NCBI GenBank assembly: GCA_028711215.1 | Contig: JAQTSO010000001.1 | Coordinates: 58,340 to 112,680 of the forward strand | Direction: 5' to 3' | DNA length: 54,341 bases | From: Endomicrobiaceae bacterium | GTDB taxonomy: Bacteria > Elusimicrobiota > Endomicrobiia > Endomicrobiales > Endomicrobiaceae | Part shown: positions 3,624-39,500 of the stretch, in pieces | Layout: each line of letters starts with the position of its first letter | Numbering within the stretch: the first letter of the stretch is position 1 | Position numbers and translations under genes: made by a program | The notes under the pieces: generated by a model | What the model was told of the DNA's origin: nothing | What the model saw: the letters and a program-made list of their open reading frames with translations, nothing else | Databases searched by the model: none

Positions 3624-4505
3624 TTAGTAACGTTTTAATAATCCGTCAATTAATCCCTTATATATGTTTTTAATTTTGATTAGTTTTTGTTTTTCAAAAA
3701 ATAATATTTTTAAAGGTGCAAACAAAAGAGAACTTCTCAGTAACATAAGTGACGTATTAAACGGGGCATAGAAAAAATATGTTCTAATCATATATACCGC
3801 ATTTTTTGAACTGTAATATCTTCTTTCCGGCGACAAATTTGCGATTTTAAAAAATAATTTATATACGGGGTTGCCGAGTTTATGAAGAAAATTAATGTTT
3901 GTTGCAATTATGCATTTATATCCTTTTTTTCTTAATTTAAAACAAAAGTCAACATCTACTTTGTCTATAAATAATTTTTCTTCAAAAAAATCTATTGAGT
4001 CAAAAATTTCAGTTTTCATTAAACCGCCGGATGTTATAATAAAGGGTTTATTTTTCCAAATAATATTTTCAACAGCCGGAAATGAATTTTTTTCTACATT
4101 TGTCTTAAATCCAGAATGGTCAATTTTCTCTTTATATTGGGGAGCAATTAACATTATTTTATTTTTATCCGGTAATCTTTCATATGCGGATAAAAGTAAT
4201 TGGTATGTTCCTTCAATAAATTCACTGTCTTGGTCCAATGTCAAAAGCCATTTGTATTTATTAGCTATTGCGTATTTTGCACCCTGATTCAATGCTTTTG
4301 CAATTCCATAATTTTTGTCATTATAAATAATTTTAACTTCTTCAGGTAAACCTTGCAGGATTTTTTTTGATTTTTCGCAACTGCTGGCATTGTCTATAAT
4401 AATAACTTCATCAACCTGATTTTTTATTGACTCATATAATCTGATGATTGATTCATCAGGTTCGTAACTTACTATAACAGCACATATAAGTTTGTCAGAT
4501 GTCAT
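3624..4505 (-). CDS. Glycosyltransferase family 2 (rhamnosyltransferase-like), paralogue 1
   Basis: A 293-residue GT2 enzyme for polysaccharide assembly. It shows ICAVIVSYEPDESIIRLYES at the nucleotide-binding start, IIIDNASS near residue 40, LLTLDQDSEF (metal-binding Asp pair) near residue 90, and FIDKVDVDFCFKLRKKGYKC in the acceptor region. The C-terminal part is hydrophobic or amphipathic, as in RfbF/WbbL-type rhamnosyltransferases. It is a close paralogue of the gene at 5605-6474: long stretches are identical, for instance around YNDKNYGIAKALNQGA. Only a GT9 gene separates the two. The gaps to its neighbours are 3 bp and 10 bp. Confidence 0.88.
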   Translation of the reverse strand: MTSDKLICAVIVSYEPDESIIRLYESIKNQVDEVIIIDNASSCEKSKKILQGLPEEVKIIYNDKNYGIAKALNQGAKYAIANKYKWLLTLDQDSEFIEGTYQLLLSAYERLPDKNKIMLIAPQYKEKIDHSGFKTNVEKNSFPAVENIIWKNKPFIITSGGLMKTEIFDSIDFFEEKLFIDKVDVDFCFKLRKKGYKCIIATNINFLHKLGNPVYKLFFKIANLSPERRYYSSKNAVYMIRTYFFYAPFNTSLMLLRSSLLFAPLKILFFEKQKLIKIKNIYKGLIDGLLKRY

Positions 4506-17619: not shown

Positions 17620-18120
17620 ATGCTAGTCAAGAAAATTTGGGTAATGACTATTGTTTTTTTCATGCTGATATCTAATGTATCTGTATCATTGATATCGGCT
17701 TTTTCCTTTGCGTTTGAAAATACAAATATGCAATTGGAAGGAATAAATATAAGTTCTCAATACAAATTCGTTAAGAATGCCCCAAAAGATTTTATAAATT
17801 TGTGTGTAAATATCAGCAAAGATACAAGTTTGTTTAATATAATATCAGCAAAGTTTGCAAATATTGTTGACGATAAAAAGTTTAAAGACCTTTCAGATGG
17901 CTCCATATTAATGGTCTCAGGATTTAAATTCAAATCCGTTAAGATAATTGAAAGAGTTTTTCTAAACAGCAATAGCGGTATTTCGCAAGGGACAAATATA
18001 TTTTATTTGTTTATGGTGATTTTAATTTTTTACCTGATAGGATATATAGGACTACTCAGGGTGTTTAATGATTCATTTTGTATTAATAAAAATATTTGGA
18101 CAGTAAAGCTCTGCCTTTAG
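17620..18120 (+). CDS. Small exported or membrane protein upstream of the giant gene
   Basis: I do not recognise this 166-residue protein. It has a hydrophobic N-terminus that could be a signal peptide or anchor (residues 5-31), a 90-residue hydrophilic middle rich in Ser, Lys and Asn, and one strong membrane segment near residues 127-147 (NIFYLFMVILIFYLIGYIGLL), then a short tail ending CL. It has a good promoter and ribosome site. Its stop codon lies inside the loop of the terminator hairpin at 18109-18143, so ribosomes finishing this gene would cover the hairpin. It is therefore a candidate leader gene controlling read-through into the 4488-residue polyprotein. Confidence 0.7.
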   Translation: MLVKKIWVMTIVFFMLISNVSVSLISAFSFAFENTNMQLEGINISSQYKFVKNAPKDFINLCVNISKDTSLFNIISAKFANIVDDKKFKDLSDGSILMVSGFKFKSVKIIERVFLNSNSGISQGTNIFYLFMVILIFYLIGYIGLLRVFNDSFCINKNIWTVKLCL

Positions 18121-18154: not shown

Positions 18155-21100
18155 ATGAAAAGCAGAGTTGTTAAAATTCCATTTTTAAAAATTTGTTCGG
18201 TTGTTACTGCCATTTGTTTTTTGGTATCAACAATTGGAAATAATTTATATGCCTCTGTAATAACTGCGGATGTTTCTCAATGTAATAATATATTTGAAAG
18301 CATGAGTGTTATCAAACAGGAATATGGAAAGGTAACTGCTATACAAGACAGTTCAAGTGATGTTACTGTAGTAAATATACAGGACTTACATTGTCATGAA
18401 CAAACACAGAGAAATATAAGCGAAATTATAAAAACATTGGATAAAAATTATTCTCTAAAATCTATTTTTATAGAAGGCGGATACGGACAAATAGATGTAT
18501 CATGGGTAAATAAAGTAAAAGATGAAAAAATAAAAAATTTAATAACTGAAAAAATGCTTCAGGATGGTTATTTAACCGGTGCGGAATATTATGTAATTCA
18601 AAATTCCAAACACAATCTCTTGAAGGGAATAGAAGAACGGGATATCCATCAGTCAAATTTAGACAGACTCTCAAAAATAATGAGGAAACAGCCGGAATAT
18701 AATTCTGTTATGTCAAGAGTAAACAAAGAAATCGAAGTGTTGAGCAATATTTATTTAAATGAAAAAAACAAAAGATTTTCCAGAAAAATCAATGAGTACA
18801 GAAACGGAAAAACAGACACATTAAAGTTTTACAGACTATTAGAAAAATATGTAAAAAAAATACAGTCATCTCCGGATAAATACAATAATATCGTTTCAAT
18901 AAATTTAGAAGATTATCCTAATATTTCTAAATATCTTGATATTTCCGGCCAATCAAGAGATGCAAATCCGAGACAAGTCAGTATAGAAATGCAAACGCTG
19001 GTAAATGTTATTAAAAATAAAATACCTTACGTTTCATATAGAAAGCTTTTAGATGTAACAAATAATTTTAACGATACAGAAAAATTGGTGGAGTTTCTGG
19101 CAAAATTTTGCGACCAGTATAATATAGACTTGTCAAAAGATTTCAAAGAATTAAATAAATTTTTTACTGCAAACAGATTAAATCAGAGATTAAATCCGAT
19201 TGAACTGGTAAACGAAGAAAGAAAATTAATAGAACAAATCAGAATGGCATTGTCATATGATAATACCGAATATGAAATTTCCTATATAAATGACTTTGCA
19301 AAATATTTTGATGATTATCTGACTTATTCACTAACATCATCTGACTGGAAATATGTTAAACAGGATTTTGAAAAATTTAGATTATTTTACACAAAATATG
19401 CAGTTGTTGACAGGATTAATGAAATATCTTCAGACATAGATTTTATAAATAAATATTATGATACTAACGATATCAGAAATGATATTTTTATTTCCAATGT
19501 GTTAAATAATGAAAATCCTCAACAGAATTTGAATCCTTTAAGGACATCAGAGGAAATATTAAAACAATCAAAGGAAGTTGTAGTTGTAATTACAGGCGGT
19601 TATCACAGTGAAGATTTAAAATCAATGTTTGCCGACAGAAAAGTTAATGATATTGTTATAACTCCAAATGTAGTCGGTGATATAAAGAATGCCAATAAAA
19701 GATACGACAGTATTATAAGAAAACAAACATCAATACAATCAAATGCATTGGCATTCAGGATTGCCTCATGTCTGTCAGATGAAAATCAAAAAAATTTAAT
19801 GGTTAAAGTTGCAGTTGAGATTTTAGGCAAAGATAATATCGTACAAATACAACAGTTATTAGGCAAAGATATTGATATTTCCAAAATTGAAGATATTGAA
19901 ATTGATGAACAAAAGAAATCAGATGTTCAAAATTTAATACAAACAACAGTTAATTCTTTAGTTGATGCCTTGCCACAAAAAGCAGGGCAGAATATATTCA
20001 ATCCAGATATTGACAATATTTTAACAGAAATGAGTCTTAAACTTTACGATATGGGATTTTATTTTGAAAATGGGGCTGTGTATGAAATAGATTCATCCGA
20101 ATACAAAGATAAGGATTTGTTCGGTATTCCGGTAGAAGTATATTCAAGAATGTTTGCAAGTCTGCAAAAAGCAATGCTTAAGACAGAACAAATAAGGGAT
20201 GGCATATCATCCAAACTCCCAACAGATAAAAATATAAAAATTCAATGGAGCAGTTTTCCTGACAAAGCATTTGTTTTAATTCAGGAAATTTTATTTAGGG
20301 CATTTCCGGCATTAATTTTTATTTTTAATCCGGTTATAGGTATTCCTCTTTTTGTTATATCGCAAATGGTTTCTTTAAGCTTGGAAATTTTTATACAGTG
20401 GAAAGCATATCAAAAATTAGACGTTAAAAATCCTGATTTTTTTAAAAAATACGTAAATAAACTGCCTTTGATAACAATTTTATTAACCGCTCCTTATGCC
20501 GTCGCACTTGCAACCAATATTTTATATCTGCCTATAGCACTTGTTTTAACAATCGTTATACATTATCTTTTTGTGAAAAAGTTTTCAGTAAATAAAACAT
20601 TTAATAATAAAAGTGTTTCCCCGTTCTTGTTAGCCCCGTCTATGGGTATTTTCTGGAGGGCTACAGGAACTATAGAACGTTATAGAACTGCATTAAAGAA
20701 TAGAAACGATAAGAAAGCCGGTTCTGAAAAATATAAATTAAAAAAAGACGTCAGCTACGAAACCATATTGAGAGATCAGAACAACAGCACTGCTCTTGAA
20801 ACTATAATCAAAAATGAACAACTGGATGTTAAATACAGGCTGTTTGCTTTAATGTATCTAAAGACAAACAATCTTGATATTTATAAGGGAATTACAGAAA
20901 ACGTCATTGATAAGGAAATTACAGAAAAGATTAAGAAAGATTTTAAAAATTCTCTGCAAAAAAATAAAATTAAAAATAATTTTGATTTGCAGGCTAATCT
21001 TACCGGAATATTTCTTATTTTAGATGATATTTTGCACGAACAGCTTCATGGTAATTCATACAGGATTTATGAAGAAATACAAGATGCCGTAATTGTAAGA

Positions 21101-24100
21101 TACGGCATGGCGAGTGCGGTTGCCAATGATGATTTTATTTTCGGAGCGGTAGATTATGAAACATTGGCTCACGAACTTGGACATAGAATTCTTAAATATT
21201 CTTCAATGGAAGGTGATTTAACTTTAGGAGAATTATTTGCGGAAACAGTTTCAAATCTTATAGCGCGGGAGTTTAACATCATTCCTTCCAAAAATAGTGC
21301 GCAACTGTACGGATTATTTGATCCTAATGTTAATTACATCCGCGTTTTTCAGGAAGAGCATGAAGCAGCAGACGGGTTTTTAAATTTAATAAAGCAATCA
21401 ACAGAAAAAAATCCAAATTGGTTAGTGCTTATAGATACTATCATAAATTATGGCTATTATAGAGAAGGGGTTAAACGTCCGTCCGCACAGGGAGCGATTT
21501 TAAAGGATATATTGGTTGGATACGAAGAAAGATTAAAACAAACAGATGAATCCGATATAGTTGATTTTGCAAAGAAAAAAACGGCTAAAACCGGCATAGT
21601 AATGGATATTCTTAAAGATATCAAAGAAAAAAATCCTTATCAATACGATAATATTTTGAAAAAAATCAGGTCAAAGGCAAAGATTCAAAAATCTTATCAG
21701 CAAGAAAATATTGATAAGACTAAATTTTGGCAAAGCAAATCAAAAGTTGAAGAACTGTTCAATATTATTGAGGCAATATTTTCTTCAGAAAAACTTTATG
21801 ATTTTGAAATTATAGCGGCAATATTCAGCAGTCCTGATAATATAGATTCTGTTTTAAATGATATGTTTGACGTAATTTTTAAAGATACAGATTATTCTAT
21901 GTATGATTTTGAAAATTTATACAAAATAAAATCGCTGATGGCACATGACAGAACGTATACGTCCAAAGAAGAGTTAGAACAATATCTTAAACCTATTATA
22001 GATTTGATTACGTCTTCAAGGCGGACAGAACCAACGAAAGATGATTTTATTAATTTGAAAAAAAACAAAAGATATACGTTGAAAAAGAATTTCCGTTTAA
22101 TGATAGTTGAAAATTTTAATAAACTCGGTCTGCCTGAATTAGTAGATACGCTTTTTCCGCAGAAAACGTATGATACAAATAAAACTGGTTCTAAATTATC
22201 AATATTTGATGCATTGAAAAGCAAAAATTCAATATTTGCTTTTTTGGCAAAAACAGCGCCGGTTTGGGAGGAGATAGTATTCAGGGCGATCCCTTCGCTC
22301 ATTACAATATTTAATCCGTTTGTTGGGATACCGTTATTTGCAGTATCACAGATAGCATTTTTATTTTCGCATACAATAGTTAAATGGTTGACTTACAGGG
22401 ATTCGGCAGGCAACAGATTAAATTTTGCAAGTATTTTGAAAAATGATTTGAAAAATCTTTCGCTTCCCGCACTTACAGTATCAATCCCTTATATAATTTC
22501 AATGATTGTCGGTTCGGTGTTACCGATTGCAGTAATAACGTCTATAGCCATACATTATTTGCACAATAAAATAAATCCTCAAAATCCTATGGAATTATTT
22601 TCTTCGGATAATATGACTCCTGACAATATAGAGCAGATTATGCAGCGTTATGCAAAGATGCTCGGGTCTGACAGATATGTCAAAGAAAAAATAAAAATAA
22701 TTGATAAAAATTTAGTTTACCGTTTGGTTCAAACATCGTCGGATTCGCATCAAACGCTGGTAAATATAATAACTAAAATGCAGTATGTGGATCCAATGCT
22801 CATAAACCATATGGAATCTTATGAATATGTTTCTGATATTTTTGAAGCAAGCGATGCTTTGTTGCAATATATAGGAGGCATGGGTTTTGATTCCTATAAT
22901 TTCAATCTTTTCTTTAAGTTAAGAAAAAGTGCAGGAATCAAGAATGAAGAATTTTCAAATATTTGGTTAGCAAATATTATACGTGATGATATCAAAATGC
23001 AGTATTTAGACAGTGTTACGTTAATGGGATTGGAAACAATTTTAAAAATATTCGGCCCCGAAAGAAATCTTGATACAATCCAATATTTGTTTAACAAACT
23101 GTGTTATGCAGACAGTTTTGATTTTAATAAATTTTTTAAGTTAGTAAAAGAAAATGATTTAACAAAAAATCAGAATAAACTCAAATTATTACAAACAAGT
23201 TTTGATAACGGCTTTGAGGACAACGCTGATGAAATACTCGGTTTTTCCGATGTTGAAACAGCGGCTGTAATTGAAGTGTTGGATGACAATGATAATAAAA
23301 CAGCATTGCTGAATTTCAGATTATTTTCCGAATTAAAAGAAATGCTGGGCGTGCAACCGGATGATAAGAATAATATACGTTTCTTGGCAAAATACTGTTT
23401 CAATAAAGGAAATATTGTTGAAACCGGAAAACTTACGAATAAGTTGGACGAAAATATTTTTGTGCAAAATTTAAAAATAATATTAAAAAATGAAAATAAG
23501 GAATATATTTTGACATCTCTTCTGGCAGACTTGACTGTTGCCAATATCTATTTAAGTGACAGTCAGGCGGAACAGATTATGCGGTTGTTGGAAGAAATGA
23601 CTAAGATGGATATTAAAAATCTTGCCGTAAGCAATGAAAATCTGGCACTTAAAGTATTTCTAAGTCCCGCTTTTGTCACTGTTTTTAACAGTCAGGTTTC
23701 TAAAGAAAATTTCAAGAATATTGACAATATGATTCAAAGGTACAGAAGGGCAATAGCCGTCGGCATATTTATGAACCAACTTTTGAACGGCAGAGAGGAA
23801 CTTTTAACCCCGGAAAATTTTGATAAAATTGTAAAGATATCAACGGATGCATATTTTTCAATACTTGAACAATGGTTTAATAAAAAACTTGCAGACAAAG
23901 ATTCTGTTGTAACTGCAATATTTCATGATGAAAGCGCCGATATAGTTTTTAAAGATATACAGGGAGACAGATTTAATCCTGAAATTTTAAAGAAATTTTT
24001 AAATAAAATCGGAATTGATACAGATACTAATGAAAATGTAAAAATTTTGCAGAGATCAAAAGATCCCGGCGTAAAGTTTAAAATACTTGACAGCATAATA

Positions 24101-27100
24101 AATTCTCCAAAAAACGGTAAAAAGAGCTTGTTCTGGTTTGACGGACACGGGTCAAAAAACGGTTTTTCAATAACCGCAAGCGAACATATATATTTTGAAG
24201 AAATTGCCGATGCGTTGCGTGTTGCGTATACAAACGGTGTAGATTTAAAAAACCTTACACTCGTGTTTAATTCATGCCATTCAGGTGATTTCAAAGATAA
24301 AATTCTTACTATGCTTGAAGAAAGAAGCGTTAAAGATTCTCCGGTAATAATTACCATAGCCGGTCATGAAACCGAATTGGGGTATACCGACATTGTAGAA
24401 CATGATGGCGATAAACTGTTGGTGTCAAACCTTGAATTCAGTATTTTTAATTTATTTGAAAGTTCTTCAAACGCAGATTCAGAAAATAATAATTTATTGT
24501 TAGGCGATTTTATATTGGCACAAAGCGATGTTAATTATTCAAATCCTACAATATCAATACCTCTTACGGAGGATGTAAGAAAAATTATTGAAAAGACTCT
24601 GTCTCAAATAGACAACGTCAACAAACAAGAGACGGATAAGTCCGAAGAATCATCGCTTTTGGTAAGAACCGGAATAGGAATGTCTATAGAAGCTTCTGAA
24701 TCAGTACAGGCAACAATAAAAATGCCTTCAGCTTCTTTGGAATTATCAATATTTGGTGCTTTAAAGAATAAATCAAAAGTATTTTCATTTTTGGCAAAGA
24801 CGGCACCTGTCTGGGAAGAGATATTATTCAGAACCATTCCTTCGGCGGTTACAATATTTAATCCGGTTGTGGGTATATCATTATTTGTTGTGTCACAGAT
24901 AGTATTTTTATTTTCCCATACAATAGTAAAATGGCTGGTTTACAAAGATACGGCAGGCAATAGATTGAATTTTGCAAGTATTTTGAAAGATGATTTTAAA
25001 AATCTGTCACTTCCTACTCTTGCAGTATCAATCCCATATGTTTTAACAATGATAATCAATCCTGTATTTTGGCCGATGGCAGCCGTATCCTCTATAATAA
25101 TACATTCCCTGTTCAATGATAAATTATCCATATTAGGTTATTTTAAAAATATAAAATTAAAAGACAATTTTGATCTTAAGCTTCCGATACAAGCATTAAA
25201 TATAAAAGCAGGAGCCGAAATATTTGTAACGTATCTTGCAAACGACAAACTTATTATTTCAAGAAATAAAGCCGAACTTGATAAATTTTGCGAAGAATAT
25301 ACCGCAAACAAACCGGCACATATTACAAGCAGAATATATGCTAATACGGTAAAAATTATCGTCAAAAATAATGGAACCGTAAACGTAAAACAATTATATA
25401 AAAATAAATTAGAAAGATATCCTCTTACACAGGAACAAAAAAATAATATTACGCTTTTTTACAGTCAGGTTCCGATAAAATCGGAAGAAAAAACCGAAAC
25501 AATTTCTGATAAGCCGGTAAAAGACAACAGTGAAGAAAATATTAAAGATGCATTGATAGATAAAATAGGACCGGTCAATGTAATTGATTTTGATTTTTCT
25601 CAATTTATAACCGGTGAAAAACAAAATGCCGATATTAAAGAAATCCGTGAATATGTGAAATCAATAATTATCGGAAAAGATCTAAGAAATAATTTTATTT
25701 CCGTAACATTTTCTAATTTGACCGATAACGTCGGACTTGATGAAAATAAAATTAAAATTGCCGGCACAATAATATCTGTTTTATCAGATGAATTTAATGA
25801 AATTTTTGCAGATAGCCCGGCAGGTGCTCCGGGAGTTACATATTTTGAAGATATGATAGAAAATGCTTTTGTACACGGCAATAACTTATCATTAAATAAA
25901 AAAATATTTATTTATTTCGGCAATGATAGAGATGTGCTTGTTATTAATTCAAATACTCCTCAGAATAAAACAGTTGAAGCCTTGGCACTTGCATCAAAAT
26001 TGTATTTATACGGATTCGGCTCCGGTATAAAATCCGCAGAAATAGTGAATAATGCCAGGTATGCTATTACTGATTTGATTATGCCCGATAAAACAACAAA
26101 AGAGTTATACATAGCGTATATATCGTTTAAAAAATATCAGAAATTAAAAGCAACATTGCTGGACAGGATATTAAAAAAGATTAATTTGTCCGCCATATGG
26201 CACACAATTGCGACAAGAAATATTGAACGCCAGTATTCTTATACAGTACTTCCGGTTTTAAAAGAAGGAGAATCTGTTATTGCGACAAATTTTGTAAAGG
26301 AAGGTGCGGAATACAGCGATGACTGGATAGAATGCAAGATAAGCAAAAAAGACGGTAAATATATAATAAGTAACATCAATAAAAGAGAAAATAAATTAAA
26401 GTGGGGAATTCCGTTAGAATGGCAGATTCATCTTGATGACAAACTTGAAATAACGGAAGAAAACGGTAAATTTTACGTATGTTCAAACTATAGCGATATA
26501 CGTATTTTGGAACCTCAAAATGAACAAGGTCTTGAAACTGACACTACTGATTATTCAACTCCGCAACAGCCACCTGAATCATTAACTCCTCGTGATATTT
26601 CAACACAACAAGACATTACTCGGAATAACCGTGAATTTGAAAGTCTTTTTAGACTTGTTCACAGAGACAGTATTGCAAAGCCTGTTATAGGAGATTCAGA
26701 GAATTATGGTTACAGATTAAGACTCCAAAAGGCAGGTTTTGAATTGGCAGAAAAGCTGGATTTAAATGAGATGGAAGAATTGTATAAAGACGACGAAGAT
26801 AAATTAAGTTTAATAGGATATTTGAAAATATTAAAGTTAAAAAGAACAGGCGATAATCAAGGTCTAAAATCAATAGTTTATAACGGTCGTTTAAACATTA
26901 AATACAGATTAATGGCATATATGTATTTGAGAGGTAACGGGGTTAACGATTTTAATGATGGAATACTTGGAATAATGAAAGCAAATTTTCTGATAGAATT
27001 ACAGCTTAACAGTTTTAAGATAGATAATAATTTTGATTTAAGCATGCTTGGAGCCGGCATTTTGCTTATTTTAAGCCAATATTTGAGAGACAGTAAATAT

Positions 27101-30100
27101 CTTGATGAACAACAGGAAAGAAATCTTTACGACAATATATCGTATTCTACATTTGTTGAAAAAAACGAGTTTGAAAATACGTCGGCAAATTCAGGAATGT
27201 TTTTTACATCCCCCGACCCGCTGACTATGGCCCATGAAATAGGACATCGTGTATTATTGTTTTATACCGATTCAAGTAAAGGGGTTTCATATTCTACGAT
27301 ACATGAGATATTTGCAAATGTCATATCAGCTGTTTTTGCTGAAAAAGCAGGAATTGGCAGTAAATACTACGAAGATGCATTATATGAATTATTTAATGAA
27401 AAAATGCAATACGATTATGTGCTGCAAGAAGAACACAGAGCATCAAGAGGATTGTTGTATGCTATTACGGAAATTGCAAAACAAATGGGCAAAACTGCAA
27501 AATTTGAAATTTTGGCAGATGCAGTTATCAATTTAGTAAAATCACAAAAAGTTTTGCCAAAGAGACAGTCTGATACAATTAAAGATATTGTATATGAATA
27601 TATGAATATGTTGAGGTTCAAAGATAATTATACCCAGGATGAAATTGCGAAATTTGAAGGATTATTAAAAGAGGAATCTTGGAAGAGTAAAGTCCTTGAA
27701 CTGTTTATGAATTTGAGAAGTTCAAGCGGGACAAGATGGGATTATTACGGGAAAATATACAAAAGAATTATGGATGGAATGAGAGCGTTTGTGGTACAAC
27801 CGGAATCTTACAGATACGGCATGTTGCAAATTGACTACCGTGATGATTTAGTCGTTATAAATAATATTATTATGTCTCAACCCGATAAAATCAATATTGT
27901 TTTACAGATAGTAAAGGATGAATTGAGCCAGGATGATTATTTGTTAAGAACTCAAATTGCAAAATTAATATTTGCCGATCTTATAATATCACTGCCTCAG
28001 ATGAAACAATTAACAAAATATCAATTGGACAGATTGATTCAGGAGATCATAGATAAATTTTTCTCTGATAAAATGGATTATAAAGCATCTGAGATTGATT
28101 ATAATAAAATCAGGATATATGCATTAGGGGAATATTCATTTTTTAAAACAGTTTTGCCGCGTAATTTTGGAGAACGCAACACAACTAAAAAAGATTTATT
28201 CGGAAAGAATTTCTATGAGCAAAAAACATCATATGACGAGAGTTACAAATATGCCGAATCACTTCCTTCATTTGTGCCGTCAATAGATACATTCTTTATG
28301 CTTGCCGGCATTTCCGGGCTTTACAGAAAACTTTTTGATTTTATAGTTAAAAAAATTGCAGGATTAAAACAAAGACCTAAATTCAGCCAAAGTGTTGAAA
28401 ATTACTTAAGTATAGTCAAAAATAATGTGGAAAATAAATTTCTTTTAAAGATCATTTATAATGACAGAGCATCCGTTAAATACAGGTTGTTTGCATTAAT
28501 GAATTTGAGAAACAGGGGATATGACATTAGTGATAAGTCGGTTGTAAATGACATTAAGAGAGAATTTGCCAAAGCAATAAATGCAAACAGTATGCCTGTA
28601 AACAACAATTTTGATTTGAGATCGGTTCTTGCAGGTGTATATCTTTTGTTGGAAAATTTTTCAAGAGAATATGTAGATTCAAAACAAGAAATTGAAATTT
28701 ATAAATCAATATCAAAAGCAGTCGTACTTAGAAGAGGAAAAGAGTCCATAGGTGCCAGAGCAAATATGACTTTTGTATCGCTAAATCCTTTGACTATGGC
28801 ACATGAACTCGGACACAAAATACTTGCTTATACTTCCGAAAGTTCGCTTAAAGATATAACAATTCATGAATTATTTGCAGAGATAACGGCAAATTTATTT
28901 GCAAGAATCACAGGGGTGAAGGAAAAAGAATATAAGGATGTTTTGTACGGATTATTTGATAATTCCGTAAATTATGACGATGTCTTTCAGGATGAACATA
29001 AAGCGTCAACGGGTTTTATAGAACTTTTAAGAATGGTAAGCTCACAAGCGGGTAAAAATCTCAAATGGGATATTTTGGCCAATGCGGTTATTTCATATAC
29101 AAAGAATTCATCCGATCACATTGCAGAAAATAATCAAGGAAAAAATTTAAAAAATATATTTATCGAATATCTTACCCAGCTTGATAAAAATAGGCAGTAT
29201 ACAAGAAGTGATTTGAATTATATGTTTAGTGTTGCACAGAGAGCGACAAAGGGTGAAACAGTTGTAATGGAAATACTTGAAGACATCAAAAAAACAAATG
29301 CTGAACAGTATGAAAATATTTTAAAACGTCTTCAGAGTAAAATAAAATTGCAGAAATCATATATGAAGGGACTTATCCCCAGACTTTTATACAGCAAATC
29401 AAAAATAAAAGAAATTTCGGATATATTTAAGGAATTTTTGGGAATCAAATCTGAATATAAGGATGATGCGGATATTATAACAAAACTGATATTCAGCCAG
29501 CCTAAGAGAATTAAAGATATTTTGAGAATAATTATTAACCAAATTCTAAGTAAAAGAGAATTTTCCAAATATGATTTTGAAAACGTAATCAGAATGGAAT
29601 TTATGTTAAATACAGACAAAATATATTCTTCAAAAAAAGAACTGGACAGTGATATACGTGATATTTTAAACAATATTGTAAGAAACGTCAGTAATGATGC
29701 TTTTCACAGAAACTATAATGTTTTTGACCTCAGTGACTATAAGTATGCAAAAAAATATATTGAAAGAAATAAAGCAGGAACATTGCAGACAAAAAAGACA
29801 ATTGAAATTCTTAATCGTTTGGGAAGTAAAATTTACAATCAGAGAAGTCAGGCTGAAAATTTCAAATATAGCATATTCGGTATTGCAACAGGAGTTGTAT
29901 TGGAAACATTTTCATTTTGGATGCCTAGTTTTATTAAACAACACGAAAATCCTACAAAAACAATGATAATCACAACATGGGTAATAAGGATTCTATCAAT
30001 AGGGGTGGCAGTGGCAGGCGGTTTTATGTTTGTTCCTGCAGTAGTTCCGATAGTTTTGATAGCAACAGAATGGATAACACATTTTGTATATAATCTTTTT

Positions 30101-31621
30101 GAAATAAAGAAAATTGATAAAAATATTTCCGTTAAATTTGAGTCTGTAGATACATTTAATTCAATGCAAAATTTAAGTACGGATTCTGCAATATCTGTAT
30201 TATTGGTAAAAGATATAAAGAATATGGATCCGGATAAACTTATAAATACAGGTTTAAAAGTAAATGGTGAAACGATTTGGCAAATAGATAGAGAAGGAGT
30301 TGTTTCTTTTGGAGCATCTAATACTAATATACAGGATTTAGCTATGGTTCTAAACGGAAGCAGAATTTTAGAAAGACAATTAAGAAAAGTATTAAAATTA
30401 AAAAATATGAATTTAAATGTGGAAAGTTCAGCGGTTATTGATGAAAAATCAGAAGAAATGTATTTTCAAAATACAATTGCAGTTGTTAACAATAATAAAT
30501 ATGTGCAATCAATGCTCAAAGCCTTTAAATCAATAGCATTCATGTATTCTCAAAAAACAATGATATCTTTGGAAGGAGTATCAAATAATAAACTATATCA
30601 ATCATTAACAAACGGGAAGGTTAGAAAAATTATAACTCCTGAACAATTTGAATATATAAAAAGTTTAATTGAAAAAGACAATAAAAATGTATCAGAAGAA
30701 ATACTTAATTTGAGACAACAGGGAATAGAAATATATGTAAAAGAAAATGAATTAACCGATAAGTATAAAGAATACGGGATAATCGGATTGTTGCTTAATA
30801 ATGAAATTTATGATTATTATACAGCTGAAAAAACAGAGATAGAAACCGTGGATGCTCGGATAACACTGCAAGAACTGGAAAGAAAGTTAATCAATTCGGA
30901 AAAACCACTGTTGATAGATATAGCTTCATTACAAAATATTTTTAAATCTACAAGAAATATAGTCGGAGCATATAGCGGGTTAGAGGCATTGATCGGCAAT
31001 ATAAAAATTAAATTCGGATTTAAAAATATTCAGGCAAAAGATATGGAAAATTTTGCATATGCTATAGATATGAATGATATTCCGGCCGTATCTGACGAAG
31101 ATATCAATGAAATGGTTGTTGCGGATATTGTTGGGTTTACGGGTGTATTACAATTGGACGACAGCAATATTATCAGTATAATTTTAAGGGATACAGGGAT
31201 CAATGAAAATAACAAGAAATTATTCTTAAATATTATAAAAGAGAAAGTTTTGCTTAAGAATGCTCAACAAAATAAGGAAAGAGAAGTTAATTTGAAATAC
31301 TTGAAATATGGTTTAAAAGATAAAAAATTAGAAATTTTGCTTGGTAAAGCACTTTGGTTAAGAATACAACTTGCCGGTAACCAAAGTATTGATGGGCAAA
31401 AAAATATAGATGATAATTTGAGCAATTTGACTCCTTTAGAAATAATGAAAAAAATTACAGAATTATCCCAACAGGCTTTTGACAGCAGAGATTCTAAGGC
31501 AATAGATACCATTATAGAATTAATTATGACATGTGCTGAAGAATATAAAAATGACGATATGGTACCGGTGGCAACAAATGATTTATTACGTGAATATAAA
31601 AGCATGTTGGCAGCAGCTTAA
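18155..31621 (+). CDS. Giant exported multi-protease polyprotein (4488 residues)
   Basis: The N-terminus has a signal peptide or anchor (residues 1-35). Domains in order follow. (a) An EreA/ChaN/TIKI-like domain, 60-540: IQDLH with H79, E107, GGYH with H484. (b) A CPBP-like membrane module, 690-810, degenerate (Q710-E711...R715; His replaced by E744). (c) Metallopeptidase module 1: H1006-E-x-x-H1010, with E1026 or E1030 as a possible third ligand. (d) CPBP module 2: E1372, E1373, R1377, H1406, H1467. (e) A caspase-like module: H1998 in DGHG and C2041 in NSCHSG. (f) CPBP module 3: E2221, E2222, R2226, H2255, H2317. (g) A GHKL ATP-binding module: E2569-N2570, H2574-G-N, G2620-F-G-S-G. (h) Metallopeptidase modules 2 and 3: H3027...H3031 and H3550...H3554. 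(i) Two or three membrane segments near 3905-3985, and a C-terminal region of unknown fold. The frame is unbroken. The start is preceded by TTTTGGGG. Known: these motifs define protease and ATPase families. Inferred: they act together, perhaps with self-processing. Confidence 0.85.
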   Translation: MKSRVVKIPFLKICSVVTAICFLVSTIGNNLYASVITADVSQCNNIFESMSVIKQEYGKVTAIQDSSSDVTVVNIQDLHCHEQTQRNISEIIKTLDKNYSLKSIFIEGGYGQIDVSWVNKVKDEKIKNLITEKMLQDGYLTGAEYYVIQNSKHNLLKGIEERDIHQSNLDRLSKIMRKQPEYNSVMSRVNKEIEVLSNIYLNEKNKRFSRKINEYRNGKTDTLKFYRLLEKYVKKIQSSPDKYNNIVSINLEDYPNISKYLDISGQSRDANPRQVSIEMQTLVNVIKNKIPYVSYRKLLDVTNNFNDTEKLVEFLAKFCDQYNIDLSKDFKELNKFFTANRLNQRLNPIELVNEERKLIEQIRMALSYDNTEYEISYINDFAKYFDDYLTYSLTSSDWKYVKQDFEKFRLFYTKYAVVDRINEISSDIDFINKYYDTNDIRNDIFISNVLNNENPQQNLNPLRTSEEILKQSKEVVVVITGGYHSEDLKSMFADRKVNDIVITPNVVGDIKNANKRYDSIIRKQTSIQSNALAFRIASCLSDENQKNLMVKVAVEILGKDNIVQIQQLLGKDIDISKIEDIEIDEQKKSDVQNLIQTTVNSLVDALPQKAGQNIFNPDIDNILTEMSLKLYDMGFYFENGAVYEIDSSEYKDKDLFGIPVEVYSRMFASLQKAMLKTEQIRDGISSKLPTDKNIKIQWSSFPDKAFVLIQEILFRAFPALIFIFNPVIGIPLFVISQMVSLSLEIFIQWKAYQKLDVKNPDFFKKYVNKLPLITILLTAPYAVALATNILYLPIALVLTIVIHYLFVKKFSVNKTFNNKSVSPFLLAPSMGIFWRATGTIERYRTALKNRNDKKAGSEKYKLKKDVSYETILRDQNNSTALETIIKNEQLDVKYRLFALMYLKTNNLDIYKGITENVIDKEITEKIKKDFKNSLQKNKIKNNFDLQANLTGIFLILDDILHEQLHGNSYRIYEEIQDAVIVRYGMASAVANDDFIFGAVDYETLAHELGHRILKYSSMEGDLTLGELFAETVSNLIAREFNIIPSKNSAQLYGLFDPNVNYIRVFQEEHEAADGFLNLIKQSTEKNPNWLVLIDTIINYGYYREGVKRPSAQGAILKDILVGYEERLKQTDESDIVDFAKKKTAKTGIVMDILKDIKEKNPYQYDNILKKIRSKAKIQKSYQQENIDKTKFWQSKSKVEELFNIIEAIFSSEKLYDFEIIAAIFSSPDNIDSVLNDMFDVIFKDTDYSMYDFENLYKIKSLMAHDRTYTSKEELEQYLKPIIDLITSSRRTEPTKDDFINLKKNKRYTLKKNFRLMIVENFNKLGLPELVDTLFPQKTYDTNKTGSKLSIFDALKSKNSIFAFLAKTAPVWEEIVFRAIPSLITIFNPFVGIPLFAVSQIAFLFSHTIVKWLTYRDSAGNRLNFASILKNDLKNLSLPALTVSIPYIISMIVGSVLPIAVITSIAIHYLHNKINPQNPMELFSSDNMTPDNIEQIMQRYAKMLGSDRYVKEKIKIIDKNLVYRLVQTSSDSHQTLVNIITKMQYVDPMLINHMESYEYVSDIFEASDALLQYIGGMGFDSYNFNLFFKLRKSAGIKNEEFSNIWLANIIRDDIKMQYLDSVTLMGLETILKIFGPERNLDTIQYLFNKLCYADSFDFNKFFKLVKENDLTKNQNKLKLLQTSFDNGFEDNADEILGFSDVETAAVIEVLDDNDNKTALLNFRLFSELKEMLGVQPDDKNNIRFLAKYCFNKGNIVETGKLTNKLDENIFVQNLKIILKNENKEYILTSLLADLTVANIYLSDSQAEQIMRLLEEMTKMDIKNLAVSNENLALKVFLSPAFVTVFNSQVSKENFKNIDNMIQRYRRAIAVGIFMNQLLNGREELLTPENFDKIVKISTDAYFSILEQWFNKKLADKDSVVTAIFHDESADIVFKDIQGDRFNPEILKKFLNKIGIDTDTNENVKILQRSKDPGVKFKILDSIINSPKNGKKSLFWFDGHGSKNGFSITASEHIYFEEIADALRVAYTNGVDLKNLTLVFNSCHSGDFKDKILTMLEERSVKDSPVIITIAGHETELGYTDIVEHDGDKLLVSNLEFSIFNLFESSSNADSENNNLLLGDFILAQSDVNYSNPTISIPLTEDVRKIIEKTLSQIDNVNKQETDKSEESSLLVRTGIGMSIEASESVQATIKMPSASLELSIFGALKNKSKVFSFLAKTAPVWEEILFRTIPSAVTIFNPVVGISLFVVSQIVFLFSHTIVKWLVYKDTAGNRLNFASILKDDFKNLSLPTLAVSIPYVLTMIINPVFWPMAAVSSIIIHSLFNDKLSILGYFKNIKLKDNFDLKLPIQALNIKAGAEIFVTYLANDKLIISRNKAELDKFCEEYTANKPAHITSRIYANTVKIIVKNNGTVNVKQLYKNKLERYPLTQEQKNNITLFYSQVPIKSEEKTETISDKPVKDNSEENIKDALIDKIGPVNVIDFDFSQFITGEKQNADIKEIREYVKSIIIGKDLRNNFISVTFSNLTDNVGLDENKIKIAGTIISVLSDEFNEIFADSPAGAPGVTYFEDMIENAFVHGNNLSLNKKIFIYFGNDRDVLVINSNTPQNKTVEALALASKLYLYGFGSGIKSAEIVNNARYAITDLIMPDKTTKELYIAYISFKKYQKLKATLLDRILKKINLSAIWHTIATRNIERQYSYTVLPVLKEGESVIATNFVKEGAEYSDDWIECKISKKDGKYIISNINKRENKLKWGIPLEWQIHLDDKLEITEENGKFYVCSNYSDIRILEPQNEQGLETDTTDYSTPQQPPESLTPRDISTQQDITRNNREFESLFRLVHRDSIAKPVIGDSENYGYRLRLQKAGFELAEKLDLNEMEELYKDDEDKLSLIGYLKILKLKRTGDNQGLKSIVYNGRLNIKYRLMAYMYLRGNGVNDFNDGILGIMKANFLIELQLNSFKIDNNFDLSMLGAGILLILSQYLRDSKYLDEQQERNLYDNISYSTFVEKNEFENTSANSGMFFTSPDPLTMAHEIGHRVLLFYTDSSKGVSYSTIHEIFANVISAVFAEKAGIGSKYYEDALYELFNEKMQYDYVLQEEHRASRGLLYAITEIAKQMGKTAKFEILADAVINLVKSQKVLPKRQSDTIKDIVYEYMNMLRFKDNYTQDEIAKFEGLLKEESWKSKVLELFMNLRSSSGTRWDYYGKIYKRIMDGMRAFVVQPESYRYGMLQIDYRDDLVVINNIIMSQPDKINIVLQIVKDELSQDDYLLRTQIAKLIFADLIISLPQMKQLTKYQLDRLIQEIIDKFFSDKMDYKASEIDYNKIRIYALGEYSFFKTVLPRNFGERNTTKKDLFGKNFYEQKTSYDESYKYAESLPSFVPSIDTFFMLAGISGLYRKLFDFIVKKIAGLKQRPKFSQSVENYLSIVKNNVENKFLLKIIYNDRASVKYRLFALMNLRNRGYDISDKSVVNDIKREFAKAINANSMPVNNNFDLRSVLAGVYLLLENFSREYVDSKQEIEIYKSISKAVVLRRGKESIGARANMTFVSLNPLTMAHELGHKILAYTSESSLKDITIHELFAEITANLFARITGVKEKEYKDVLYGLFDNSVNYDDVFQDEHKASTGFIELLRMVSSQAGKNLKWDILANAVISYTKNSSDHIAENNQGKNLKNIFIEYLTQLDKNRQYTRSDLNYMFSVAQRATKGETVVMEILEDIKKTNAEQYENILKRLQSKIKLQKSYMKGLIPRLLYSKSKIKEISDIFKEFLGIKSEYKDDADIITKLIFSQPKRIKDILRIIINQILSKREFSKYDFENVIRMEFMLNTDKIYSSKKELDSDIRDILNNIVRNVSNDAFHRNYNVFDLSDYKYAKKYIERNKAGTLQTKKTIEILNRLGSKIYNQRSQAENFKYSIFGIATGVVLETFSFWMPSFIKQHENPTKTMIITTWVIRILSIGVAVAGGFMFVPAVVPIVLIATEWITHFVYNLFEIKKIDKNISVKFESVDTFNSMQNLSTDSAISVLLVKDIKNMDPDKLINTGLKVNGETIWQIDREGVVSFGASNTNIQDLAMVLNGSRILERQLRKVLKLKNMNLNVESSAVIDEKSEEMYFQNTIAVVNNNKYVQSMLKAFKSIAFMYSQKTMISLEGVSNNKLYQSLTNGKVRKIITPEQFEYIKSLIEKDNKNVSEEILNLRQQGIEIYVKENELTDKYKEYGIIGLLLNNEIYDYYTAEKTEIETVDARITLQELERKLINSEKPLLIDIASLQNIFKSTRNIVGAYSGLEALIGNIKIKFGFKNIQAKDMENFAYAIDMNDIPAVSDEDINEMVVADIVGFTGVLQLDDSNIISIILRDTGINENNKKLFLNIIKEKVLLKNAQQNKEREVNLKYLKYGLKDKKLEILLGKALWLRIQLAGNQSIDGQKNIDDNLSNLTPLEIMKKITELSQQAFDSRDSKAIDTIIELIMTCAEEYKNDDMVPVATNDLLREYKSMLAAA
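20200..20620 (+). repeat. CPBP-like module, copy 1 (degenerate), in the giant gene
   Basis: Encodes residues about 683-822. The sequence around QEILFRAFP, FNPVIGIPLFVISQ and IHYLF aligns with copies 2 and 3. The first Glu of EExxxR is Gln710, the His of FxxxH is Glu744 (and its Phe is Ser740), and the last residue of HxxxN is Val807. Confidence 0.7.
20760..21700 (+). repeat. HExxH metallopeptidase module, copy 1, in the giant gene
   Basis: Encodes residues about 870-1180. The copy shares with the others a VKYRLFALMYL helix, a NNFDLxxxLxGIxLIL block, AHELGH at 1005-1010 and an acidic helix GELFAE after it, then a GLFDPNVNY...EEHEA block. Confidence 0.75.
22199..22570 (+). repeat. CPBP module, copy 2 (intact motifs), in the giant gene
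   Basis: Encodes residues about 1349-1472 with EEIVFR (E1372, E1373, R1377), FLFSH (H1406) and HYLHN (H1467...N1471), the three CPBP motifs EExxxR, FxxxH and HxxxN. It is roughly three-quarters identical to copy 3. Confidence 0.8.
24746..25120 (+). repeat. CPBP module, copy 3 (intact motifs), in the giant gene
   Basis: Encodes residues about 2198-2322 with EEILFR (E2221, E2222, R2226), FLFSH (H2255) and HSLFN (H2317...N2321). The close match to copy 2 indicates a fairly recent duplication inside the gene. Confidence 0.8.
26810..27760 (+). repeat. HExxH metallopeptidase module, copy 2, in the giant gene
   Basis: Encodes residues about 2886-3202. It repeats the order of copy 1: IKYRLMAYMYL helix, NNFDLSMLGAGILLIL, PLTMAHEIGH (H3027, E3028, H3031), IHEIFANV (E3051), then a LFNEKMQYDYVLQEEHRAS block. 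Confidence 0.75.
28400..29380 (+). repeat. HExxH metallopeptidase module, copy 3, in the giant gene
   Basis: Encodes residues about 3416-3742: VKYRLFALMNL, NNFDLRSVLAGVYLLL, PLTMAHELGH (H3550, E3551, H3554), IHELFAEI (E3572) and LFDNSVNYDDVFQDEHKAS. It is closer to copy 2 than to copy 1 around the zinc site. Confidence 0.75.
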
Positions 31622-33517: not shown

Positions 33518-36500
33518 ATGAAAAAAATCGTATCTGTTTTAGTATCAGTATTTGTGCTTTATTCATTTGTTGCCGTTGATACGATACAAGCATTTGGTAT
33601 TTCTAATCTCAATATGGCTGACCCGGATGTTTTAAAGATAAACCAATCTCTTGGGAATGTATCAAATAGTTTTATTAGTGAAAAACAAGATAAATTAATA
33701 GTTTATATTCAGGATTTGCATGCTAACCCTTCCGTTCAAAAAAATATAGCAAAAATTATCGATAATCTGGATAAAAATTACGGTGTTGATAAAATACTTG
33801 TGGAAGGTGCTCCTTTTTCAAAATTAGATACCGGCATAATAGATGCAGTAAAGGAATATAACTTATCAAATTTGCTTCTCAATGACGGAATATTATCAGG
33901 AACTGAATACTATTTAGCTAATTACAATAAAAACACACCTGTTTACGGATTAGAAAATTGGGATACTTACCTATCAAATGTTAAAAGAGCCGGAAATATA
34001 TTGGCCGAAAAAGAATATAACCGGAAAGTTTTTGATAAATTTGAAAAAGAAATCCACTCAAAATTAAAAAAATCAAAAAAATTATTACCGTATATTGATT
34101 TTGATGTTTCAAATCCGGTTTTGATTGGTGAATTAAAACAACCGATATTGAAATATGATGCTTTGTATAATTATGTTGAACTTTCTCAACAAATCCTGGA
34201 AATAGATAAAAATAAAGTTCAAAAAGAATTGGAAGAATGTCTCAAAGATTTAAAAAACACCTTGACATTTGAAAGTTATAAAAATTTAATTTCCAAATTA
34301 CAGCAATCCGATTACTATCATTATTATCTGAAGTTAAGTCAGCAAATTGCAGACAATAATGAGCTTGCAATAAAATACCGTAATTTATTCCAGTTCTTGA
34401 GATATTATCTGGCACAAAAGAACATAAATAAATACAGTGTTGTAAATCAAAAAAATCAATATTTCCAAGACTATTTGAATTCCTTAGAAGATGAAAAATC
34501 CAAATATGACGAGTTGTTCGTTTTAAAAATGACACAGTTGTTCAAGGCATTTTTAAATCTGAATATTTCCGAACAAGAATATATATTTTTTGTCAATAAT
34601 TATGACAGGTATATAAATCTCATAGATAAAAAAATACCCGGGATTCAGGCAGAATATGATGAAATTTTTGATACGAATGAAATTTTAAAATATCATAAAG
34701 TAAATATTGACAGGACAAAAATATTTTTTGAAAACATATCCGCTTTATTTGAAAATAAATCAGACAATTCAAAGAAGATAACTGTTGTTGTGTCAGGCGG
34801 ATTCCATAGTTCATTGCTGGAATGTTTAAAGGCTAAAAATATATCCTGTTTAATGATAACTCCGGAAATTTCAGAAAATACAAAAGATAATAATTACGAT
34901 AGAATTCTTTTAAGTACAATAAATAATGATTTTCAAGATCAAGCATTGGCAAATATTCTTTTTATTTTGGTAAAAAGCCCTGTTATTCCGCAACAGACAA
35001 AGTACTTTTTTTCAAAACAATTAGTATCAAATCTTATAAAAATATATAAAACAGATAATCCTGAAAGTATTCGCCAAATGTTGTTTTCTGTTGCTGAAAA
35101 ATATAGTATGCAAATTGATGTTGAATACAATAAATCAGAGTTTATAGTTTTTATTGATAAAAATAAAAATATATTTAAGATAAATGACGGAAAAATAGAC
35201 TTAAAATCATCGACATATGTTAAATCCGCTGACATATCTTTAAAATCTAAAATAATTGCCAAAATAAAACAATTCTTCAGTATAGAACAATCTTTGTTTA
35301 TGGAATTAAATTCCAAATACAGGGGCGTTATTTCAAGAAGATCTGACGGTAATGCTTCATTTAACTGGGCACAAATCAATCATTTTTTAAAGAAAAAAGA
35401 TGAAGTATATAAACATATAGTCGATTTTGGAAATGCTTTGCTGGGAAGCGGAAATGCAAAAAAATATGAAGGCGTAGAAATTAAAAAATTCGACAGCAAA
35501 GGGAAAGTTGAACTTAATGAGGACGGTACTCCAAAAATACTTAAAAAGATAAATGTAATTATTGAAGGTGATTTAAACAAATATATTACAGATGAACTTA
35601 TACAGGATATATTTGATGAAATAATGAAAGATTTTGAAAATGATGAAGTATCAAATATCAGAGATACAATTGTAATAGGAATATTATCTAAATCACAGAC
35701 GCTTTTTTCAGACCATGTAAACAGCGGTTTTGTAGGAGTAAATCATGCTATATTTGATATAACTGATGAAGATGTTTTAAAAGCTTTTCTGTATGCCGGA
35801 CTGACACATGAGTTTACCCATGAATTTTCTCCGAAAAAAGTATCAGAAGAAGAATTATTGTTAAATGATGTTAAGTATATCAGACATTCTGTTGCACAAA
35901 TTCTTGATCCGAATATATCCGAAGAACATTATCCCGAATTTTTCAATGAGCAAATTATTAATAGGATTTTTAATGCAACGTCGGGGATTTTCCCGAAGAA
36001 ATCAAGGTTTTTTAATAAGATAAAAAATTATAAAAACAGCATAGAAGATATTGCAAGTATTTTTAACAGAAATGACAAAGGGTATCTCACCGAAAAAGAT
36101 GGTCTTAGATACGGGCAATGGCAACATGCTTATCAGGAATATCTCAAAAACAAATCTGATAATCAGGAAAAGTTTTTTTCATTGTTAGTCCACAGTGATA
36201 ACAGTAAAAATATAGATATGATGGATTATCTGCGTCAGAAGGAAGAAGGATTAAAGGTTGGAAAAGTTGATTCCAGAATACAAAACATATTGTTTGGTGT
36301 GTCCTCCGATGAGGAGCAATTATCAGAAAATGAAAACGGAGATGTAGTGGAATCGTTGAAACAAATTTTGACATCAGCCGGAATTGATGAAGGAATCCAG
36401 GAAGAAATTATGGATGAATTTAAAAAAAATATATATGAATGTATGGAATTATTGTATAAAAGAATGCCGAGATATGCATTTTACAGATTCTATACAGACC

Positions 36501-39500
36501 AAACCTCCGTGCATGAACACGGATTAGGGCACTGTTTGGATGTATTGGCATATTCAATAAAAATTATAGGAAGAAGCGGAGATGTTAATAAATTAATTTC
36601 TTCTTCTACAGATGATAAAATTTCAATAAAGGAACTTGTTTATTCTGTTTTTATGCATGATTTGTCCTGTGTTTTTTTCAGAGATAATCATGAAAAAAAT
36701 TCTGCAGTTTGGAGCAGGGCTATTTTGGAAGGCGTAGAAGACGAAGAAATGATAAATGCCGTATATAATGATTGTTTGGGACATAAAAAAATCGAAATGG
36801 ATCGTTCGTTAATAGGCTGTATCCTGCATGATGCAGATGCTTTGTCGGCAACTTTAAACATGAAAAGAATTTTAAATATTTGGCTGAACCAAGATAACTA
36901 TTTGATGGATAAAAGATTATCAATCAATGAAAGAATTGCCAAAATAAAAGCAGGAATGTATTTATATCAGGATGGCGGTGACGGGGTCAATGATTTATTG
37001 AGACATTATTTAAGGTCTGACCCTGCAAGGTACAAAACAATAGGCGGAGCATCCATTATAAAAACAAGGTTTGATGATATGTATGTAGTCAGAAATTTTC
37101 TTGAAGCTCAAAGAGAATATATTAAAACAAAAAACAATAAACAAGGTAATAAATTTACAGATAGAGATGTTGATGAAGCAATAGAAGTTGTAAACGAGAT
37201 AATGACAATTGAGTTTGAAGGATATGACAAGCAGGAAGGTAAACCAATTATAGTGCAAAATGAATCTTTGTTTACTTTTAAAATAAAAATGAAAATTTTA
37301 TGGCAGATAATTAAATACAAAATATTTAAACAAGATATGTATTTTAACAGAAATATTGTTTTTTCCGACATACATGGCGGATATACCAGATTTTTGGAAT
37401 TAATGTATCAAATGCTTGCATCCAGCAGAGATTTAAAGATTTCTAATTATTTTGAATTGTTGCATAACGGTAAAGATCAAAATGGATATGAAATATCCGA
37501 TGCTGAAATAAGAAGGATGCAGTCTGAAATAGAAACTGATATTTTAAATAAATGGAATGTAAGGGGCAATAAGAGCACTCTTTATATATTGGGAGATATT
37601 CTTGACAGAGGTCCGAAACAGGTTGAAACTTTTATGTTTGTGAAAAAATTGGCAGAGTCGGGCAGGGTCAAGTATGTTATCGGCAATCATGATTTATTTG
37701 CATCAATGAACTTGTTTGGAATGCATTTGCCGATTACAGACAAATTTAAGGGCATACCAAAAGATTATGTAATACCTGAAGGATATATAAATAAAACAAA
37801 AGTTAATATATATCAGGATTGGTACCATAGAGTTACAAATATAAGAGATGTGACAAGATCCAAAGATATGTCTTATTGGTTACAGGTTTTTGCTCAACGC
37901 ACAAAATATTCAACAAATAGACAAAATGAGGTATGGAATGAGGAATTAGCTAAGATAAGTACAGAGTTTAAAAAGAGTTTTGGTTTTGCCCAGCACAACA
38001 GTGTTAAAAATATTCTCTCAAATACCGATAAAAACATTTTTGGACTTGACGAAAATCAGGCAATGTTGGAATTCAATAAAGCTTTTTTTGGTATAAAATT
38101 TGACACTGAAATTTCAACAGGGATGAGAGATGTTGAACAAATGGCTGTCAATTGGTGGATAAATAAATTGGAAGAAGCAAAAGAGTTAAAAGATCAATAT
38201 CAAGAATATGGAAGTTATTGGGATAATGTTATTGAAGTTATAGAAAAAGTTATAGAAGAACAAAAGAAAAAATATCAATATGAAATAAACAACGGAAATT
38301 GGGGCTGGGCTGTTATTGATGCGATGATGTACAGAACCTATGAAAGTATGGAATGGTACGCTTATGATTATATAAAACATAAGGGATGGGGAGAAGCCTT
38401 ATTGAGTCAGATAAATTCCTATTTGGATTTTAAGAAGGGAAGTGAATTAAATAAAAAGCTTAATGATAAATTTATAAATTTTGCGGTGAATAAAGATGTT
38501 AAAAAAAGCGAAATAATGGATATAATAGTTCAGATGGAACATTTAGGTATATCACAGGCGTATACAAATTATTTAACCAAAAAATTAGATATGGCAGTGA
38601 AAGTGCAAAATCAGGAGGAAATAGACAGAATAACAAATTTAATAGATACAAAAATTTCAAGATATAACAGATTGACAGGTTCCGAAAAGTCTTTTGTGAA
38701 ACGTGAACTTTGTGATCTGGTGATACAACTTGATTCTTTAGGTATGCCTCAAATTACGGTTGAGGATTTATTAAAAAAGATTCTTGAATTGCCGGATAAT
38801 GAACGGGCAGGAAGGCAAAAATTAGTAGATGAAAATATAAAAAATTTACTTCAGGAACTCTTGATTTATTCCAATCTGGATAAAAACAATAGAATGATTG
38901 CTGAAATGAGATTGAACGCAATAATGCAAAAGCTGGAAGAGTTAAATGTATCAAAATCCCTTTTGGATTATTTAAACGGCAAGATTGCGCTTGTAATTTT
39001 TACAGCGGATGAAAAAATTACATTTATAAATCAAACGATAAAAACATATAATGATTTGTCGCAATCGCAAAAAGATTCCGCTAAAGCTATGATGTGGATG
39101 TTGCTTTTGGAATTGGAAAATGAGAGGCTTCCTCAAACAATAACGGAAGAAGTGGCAACCAGAATAAAAGCATTGCCGTTAACCGAATTTGAAAAATCAC
39201 AGAAATCTAAAATGAATATGATAGATGATGTGTCATATTTTAATAATGAAGAAATGAAATCCATAATTGATTTTTTCAAAAACAACTTTGCATTATACAG
39301 AATTGATGAATACGGATTTTATTATATGCATGCTCCGTTACCTTATGATGAATATGGAGATGTATCCATCGGACGTGTTGCAGAAGACGGTAAGTTTGAA
39401 GAATTCGATGCAAAAGGGAAAAGAATAAAAGGATTTTATTATAAAGGAGTGCATTATACAGGGGAAAAAATTTGGGACGGTTTTTCAAAAATAGCAAAAG

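Follow-up and report, generated by a model that had tools for sequence, protein, structure and literature searches.

The 54,341-nucleotide stretch analysed here (contig JAQTSO010000001.1 of assembly GCA_028711215.1, hereafter the window) contains on its forward strand an uninterrupted open reading frame (ORF) of 4488 amino acids (18155–31621), encoding a giant protein with three CPBP-type modules. Judged by their sequence, these modules are genuine intramembrane glutamic-protease cores, each a four-helix unit forming part of the chain. Of the three, copies 2 and 3 most likely function as active proteases, and copy 1 is, by its motif losses, a catalytically dead structural remnant. Copy 3 directly follows a predicted C13-type cysteine protease domain, and I tentatively propose that the CPBP modules process the giant in cis. 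The host genome falls within the genus of Ca. Proruminimicrobium quisquiliarum (Elusimicrobiota, Endomicrobiales, Endomicrobiaceae), a genus described from anaerobic digesters (PMC11257099).

The presence of three such modules in one protein had been claimed in a first-pass annotation of the window, and is borne out both by motifs and by a hidden Markov model (HMM) of the module family. Copies 2 and 3 each carry all of the motifs EExxxR, FxxxH and HxxxN in that order. Copy 2 (residues 1347–1479; 22193–22591, this and all other parts of the giant being on the forward strand) has E1372, E1373 and R1377, then F1402 and H1406, then H1467 and N1471; copy 3 (residues 2196–2324; 24740–25126) has E2221, E2222 and R2226, F2251 and H2255, and H2317 and N2321. 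Copy 1 (residues 686–813; 20210–20593) has lost catalytic residues, with Q710 in place of the first glutamate (Glu1), E744 in place of the histidine of the second motif (His2) and V807 in place of the asparagine of the third, and retains E711, R715 and H803. Every residue that the annotation had named in the three copies is correct on translation, and R715 was also confirmed. Against the module-family HMM, which has the window copies among its seeds, the three segments score 93–158 bits; copy 1 reaches 102 bits, compared with 16.6 for the best of 300 pattern-preserving shuffles.

A match to PF02517 had been proposed as a check, with its absence counting against the assignment. The single window copies do score below the curated cut-off of 22.4 bits (11.6, 12.9 and 13.2 bits, and no match for copy 1), a value that is a detection threshold and not a biological property. 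Since single copies are not significant, I employed profiles, and these more sensitive tests overturn the initial outcome. Of 27 homologous modules, 12 have a PF02517 match (best E 1.1e-10), and a paralogue in this genome lies above the cut-off (contig C90; 24.3 bits). An HMM built from PF02517-positive giant-protein modules, without the window copies, detects copy 2 at E 2e-9 (24.7 bits) and copy 3 at E 7e-10 (26.2 bits), with a best score of 4.8 bits among 80 local shuffles. Using hhalign, the window modules align to the PF02517-positive giant modules with a probability of 97% (E 6.7e-11), and these in turn to the stand-alone CPBPs of the phylum with a probability of 95%. An HMM of the stand-alone CPBPs scores the window protein no better than shuffles, so that only the two-step profile chain works. 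Because these comparisons link the window copies, through PF02517-positive giant modules, to stand-alone CPBPs, the homology is secure.

A search of the PDB with the module profile gave no match up to E 10. An AlphaFold model of copy 2, generated from 16 sequences, has a mean predicted local distance difference test score (pLDDT) of 80 and shows four long helices (35–53, 55–85, 91–119 and 123–140, in model numbering). The motif residues E39/E40, H73, H134 and N138 of the model, corresponding to E1372/E1373, H1406, H1467 and N1471, are placed 12–19 residues from one membrane face, as estimated from the helix ends. This answers in part the topology check suggested in the first-pass annotation: the motif residues share a comparable depth within the predicted bundle of four helices, a result that concerns depth only and not the membrane face. 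For comparison, in the myxosortase MrtX the CPBP domain corresponds to transmembrane helices TM4–TM7, where EExxxR lies in TM4 and HxxxN in TM7 (PMC11980579). It is to this unit of myxosortase, and to TM4–TM7 of Rce1, that the window modules correspond. Copies 2 and 3 resemble CPBP/Rce1 proteins (PF02517; MmRce1, MrtX) in the order of their motifs, the four-helix core, the modelled residue depth and profile homology. Unlike stand-alone CPBP/Rce1 proteins, the window modules consist of the four-helix core only, have no other transmembrane helices around them, are internal to a chain of about 4,500 residues and occur several times per protein; their first hairpin loop is uncharged, where stand-alone CPBPs have about three basic residues.

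Residues 1958–2185 (24026–24709) correspond, by profile and by model, to a C13-type cysteine protease domain of caspase-type fold, similar to legumain and GPI transamidase, and copy 3 begins 11 residues past its end. PF01650 matches five of the eight members of this C13 family (best E 5.3e-6), while the window copy itself remains under the cut-off of 22.8 bits (18.5 bits, E 0.0016). Searched against the PDB, the family profile matches GPI transamidase (E 7.2e-5). The best eleven Foldseek matches are all GPI transamidase or legumain/asparaginyl endopeptidase (probability 0.97–1.0 for the best seven; E 0.004–0.045), the query being a joint model of C13 and CPBP with a mean pLDDT of 49.8, usable only in its C13 core (~60–88). 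The GHG, C and GxET columns are invariant in the alignment of 8 sequences, with H1998 and C2041 as the putative dyad. The domain resembles peptidase C13 (legumain, GPI transamidase PIG-K/GPI8; PF01650) in having its His and Cys in GHG and SC motifs, as well as in its sequence and fold matches, but differs from known C13 peptidases in that it sits inside a giant bacterial protein, immediately ahead of a CPBP module, and falls below the Pfam cut-off when taken alone.

This tandem recurs in related genomes. By genome-search coordinates, the stricter criterion, 13 of 26 C13 matches have a CPBP match shortly downstream (12 at 46–196 nucleotides, one at 484), and by local HMM, the more relaxed one, a CPBP module lies within 75 residues of the C13 domain in 15 of the 26; for positions chosen at random in giants of this kind, one that close would be expected in about 3% of cases. 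Because the seeds of the C13 profile came from loci with a CPBP, and the related genomes are not independent, a binomial figure for these counts overstates their significance. A viral or plasmid origin was rejected, as no relative of the C13-CPBP segment was found among the viral contigs and plasmids searched.

The giant has an orthologue of 3847 amino acids in a sister species, with 64% identity over the main alignment. The ratio of nonsynonymous to synonymous substitution rates (dN/dS) is 0.07–0.26 across all blocks compared, and with an orthologue in an independent assembly, a chance ORF or frame artefact was rejected. The sister protein possesses two CPBP modules, both intact, which pair with copy 2 (73%) and copy 3 (81%) of the window; in the same comparison copies 2 and 3 are 67% identical over 136 residues, with tree support of 89/84 and 99/96. 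As each copy is closer to its sister orthologue than copy 2 is to copy 3, the duplication that gave rise to them is placed, on this tree, before the split of the two species of the genus. Aligned directly, copies 2 and 3 share 70.6% identity over 126 residues (78% at the DNA level), close to but slightly below the three-quarters over 120 residues noted earlier, and the synonymous divergence (dS) between them (22193–22591 against 24740–25126) is 0.74, below the 1.2–1.5 of the orthologues, which may reflect occasional gene conversion.

Growth of the gene by internal duplication, as first suggested, is supported for copies 2 and 3, with which copy 1 shares only 33–38% identity. The long branch and ~35% identity of copy 1 indicate that it is old; a recent triplication followed by decay is too simple an account of its origin. 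Copy 1 lies in an extra unit of ~665 residues (~682–1346; 20198–22192), comprising copy 1 and a first HExxH block, which appears as a gap in the alignment with the sister orthologue; the unit was, by this comparison, either gained here or lost in the sister. It starts at the beginning of copy 1 and ends where copy 2 starts, suggesting exchange at module edges.

Compared with the sister species, dN/dS is 0.12 for copy 2, 0.07 for copy 3 and 0.10 for the C13 domain, values that indicate strong purifying selection on all three. Glu1, His2 and the histidine of the third motif (His3) are retained in 43 of 46 non-redundant modules; this is an upper estimate, since strongly degraded modules may have gone undetected. 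Among the 46, only copy 1 lacks both Glu1 and His2.

The first-pass annotation described CPBP proteins as normally stand-alone, which holds for the phylum at large, where they are mostly found in ordinary frames of 200–350 residues. It does not hold for the Endomicrobiales, where they are recurrently internal: approximately 75 CPBP modules were identified in 25 of 60 genomes, all within frames of 705–9162 residues. Neither this genome nor its family yielded a stand-alone CPBP, so the built-in modules are not surplus copies of an ordinary enzyme. A 13760-residue frame from a distant Elusimicrobiota family (G091:C13; L141, L142) contains two PF02517-positive CPBP modules. Because these match the stand-alone-type HMM, CPBPs may have become joined to giants on more than one occasion.

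In the mechanism that I propose, the giant chain would insert in the cytoplasmic membrane, and the C13 domain and its adjoining CPBP module would cut it, both within or close to the membrane and in the neighbouring linkers, freeing soluble parts, among them the HExxH metallopeptidase-like blocks. The data show homology, retained motifs, purifying selection, the tandem order and its recurrence; the catalytic activity, the cis substrate, the places of cleavage, the orientation in the membrane and the role of the released parts I infer. Processing in cis is the reading I favour, held tentatively and at slightly less than an even chance, because the catalytic residues are conserved, selection is strong, C13 and CPBP are paired, no stand-alone CPBP is present, and the chain is rich in proteases (C13, three HExxH blocks and the CPBPs). 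It is also supported by precedent, as PrsW and caspase-like releasing peptidases are found in exported polymorphic toxins (PMC3482391). Several observations weigh against it. Neither a site nor a product of cleavage is known, and a fold search with the CPBP model did not confirm the fold, returning only unrelated helical membrane proteins, with no Rce1 match at E<0.001. The two CPBP hairpin loops carry almost no basic residues (0.07 and 0.02 per loop), and the active-site side carries many; by the positive-inside rule this would place the soluble domains in the cytoplasm, contrary to the signal peptide, which predicts that they are exported. Roughly half of the C13 domains lack a clear CPBP shortly after them, and giants of the same family carry non-protease domains (SecA DEAD, MFS, cytidine deaminase, PPDK_N).

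The conservation of the catalytic residues would also suit a giant that acts in trans, as a membrane-bound multi-enzyme cleaving other proteins, for instance at sorting tags, as myxosortase does, or in partner cells, as is thought for a secreted Rce1-like effector of Lawsonia. Characterised CPBPs do cleave other proteins (PMC11980579, PMC11796264), and since the genome lacks a stand-alone CPBP, this activity would come only from the copies in giants. However, no candidate substrate tag was seen, though none was searched for, and several copies per giant together with the tight C13-CPBP tandem are a better fit to local action; I regard action in trans as rather unlikely.

The modules could instead serve mainly as membrane anchors or spacers that tie the chain to the membrane at intervals, any protease activity being incidental. 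Copy 1, which has kept its hydrophobic segments without Glu1, His2 and the asparagine, would fit such a role, as would the modules of some relatives in which the second glutamate is replaced by threonine and the arginine is missing, and the unrelated hydrophobic segments present in other giants of the family. Pure anchors would nevertheless not be expected to retain Glu1, His2 and His3 in 43 of 46 modules whose mean column identity is only ~23%, making this role improbable. CPBP could also be merely another captured gene, because sibling giants carry non-protease domains: the Endomicrobiales giants would then have incorporated ordinary genes (SecA, MFS, PPDK, deaminase, CPBP) with no coherent processing role. 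The domain content of the paralogous giants in this genome and the CPBP-containing giants of distant families, such as the 13760-residue protein of G091, point this way, but the frequency of CPBP (~75 modules in 25 of 60 genomes), the conserved tandem with C13 and the strong purifying selection do not, and I consider simple capture to have a small chance of being correct.

Beyond processing of this one chain in cis, a broader scheme can be formulated, which at present I consider doubtful: that the Endomicrobiales possess an order-wide, self-processing polyprotein system of signal-peptide-bearing giants, often ten or more per genome, sharing a start of ~500 residues and exchangeable modules, in which paired C13 and membrane CPBP proteases, present in some of the chains, would take these apart into functional pieces. 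The shared start is the N-terminal domain of the giant (residues 37–538; 18263–19768), characterised by QDLHCH, EGG and GGYH motifs. Around 13 frames of this genome open with it, nearly all between 1,000 and 4,500 residues long. Of 149 Elusimicrobiota genomes sampled, 45 contain the domain, the majority of them Endomicrobiales; it has no match in Pfam or the PDB. Those giants of the family with a complete start open with a signal-peptide-like hydrophobic segment, and the later domains of the paralogues vary (PPDK_N, LMW phosphatase, PEP-utilizer, SecA DEAD, cytidine deaminase, MFS, RamC_N). Some of the giants combine a signal peptide with cytoplasmic or membrane housekeeping domains (SecA DEAD, PPDK_N, MFS, deaminase). 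In this genome (G000), start-domain giants are located on contigs C2, C48, C56, C63, C71, C90, C91, C93, C96 and C112 (L041, L144–L152). The first-pass annotation included neither this domain, nor the C13 protease before copy 3, nor the three HExxH blocks.

Giant proteins are already known from this phylum and its sister phyla, as are intramembrane peptidases fused to exported proteins. PrsW is fused to large exported polymorphic toxins, and a role in their processing has been proposed for it (Zhang et al. 2012, PMC3482391). Releasing peptidases of clan CD (caspase-like) are also found in such toxins, and both kinds are proposed to set toxin domains free (PMC3482391). The giant is similar to PrsW-dependent toxins in that a membrane-embedded peptidase related to PrsW is built into a large exported-type protein, and to polymorphic toxins generally in having a constant N-terminal region and variable later parts, across about 13 giants here. 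In contrast to PrsW, which is N-terminal in those toxins, its peptidase is a CPBP, internal, repeated and paired with a C13-type domain. The C-terminal 583 residues match no Pfam family, and no immunity gene was identified, with no systematic search made for one; the giant is not classed as a member of a polymorphic toxin system. It also resembles the Elusimicrobiota and Omnitrophota giants described in two reports (PMC11573180, PMC10066038) from the same or sister lineages, with thousands of residues, signal peptides or transmembrane helices and few recognised domains. The domains given there for Omnitrophota are adhesins and possible polysaccharide-degrading domains (PMC11573180, PMC10066038); protease modules of the present kind are not mentioned in the passages found. 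A literature search, with the main giant-gene preprint outside its scope, found no paper on CPBP inside giants or on a C13-CPBP tandem. The function and intactness of giant bacterial proteins is an open question, and possible cleavage into smaller functional proteins is raised and left unsettled in one survey (PMC11573180). Conserved C13 and CPBP domains built into one chain provide a testable prediction of cleavage for a family of giants, and CPBP as an internal, repeated module widens the known uses of this protease family.

The remaining parts of the giant are as follows. Residues 1–34 (18155–18256) form a signal-peptide-like segment, with a basic n-region, a hydrophobic core and LYAS, as judged by eye; the N-termini of relatives are similar. 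HExxH block 1 (residues 827–1290; 20633–22024) has HELGH at 1006, block 2 (2879–3368; 26789–28258) HEIGH at 3027 and block 3 (3374–3906; 28274–29872) HELGH at 3550. The three blocks have HExxH and a downstream glutamate in common; no convincing Pfam family match was obtained for them, block 1 giving none above the cut-off. A possible fourth CPBP remnant, degenerate and not established, spans residues 3906–3986 (29870–30112; LETFSFWMP to THFVYN, with an HxxxN motif); it scores 7.7 bits on the module HMM, a value reached by 36 of 1000 pattern-preserving shuffles. Motif hints alone would have suggested a TIKI/ChaN-like hydrolase for the N-terminal domain and a GHKL-like ATPase at residues ~2560–2680; neither is supported by Pfam or the PDB, and neither is claimed.

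Directly upstream of the giant lies a gene of 166 codons (17620–18120, forward strand), whose product has hydrophobic N- and C-terminal segments, and a gene of equal length is found at the matching place upstream of the giant in the sister species. A second giant of the N-terminal-domain family follows downstream (33518–40654, forward strand; 2378 residues from the ATG at 33518), with a signal peptide, IQDLHANPSVQKN, and an ApaH-like metallophosphatase domain. The giants are adjoined by a gene for an ankyrin-repeat protein of 520 residues on the reverse strand (41751–43313).

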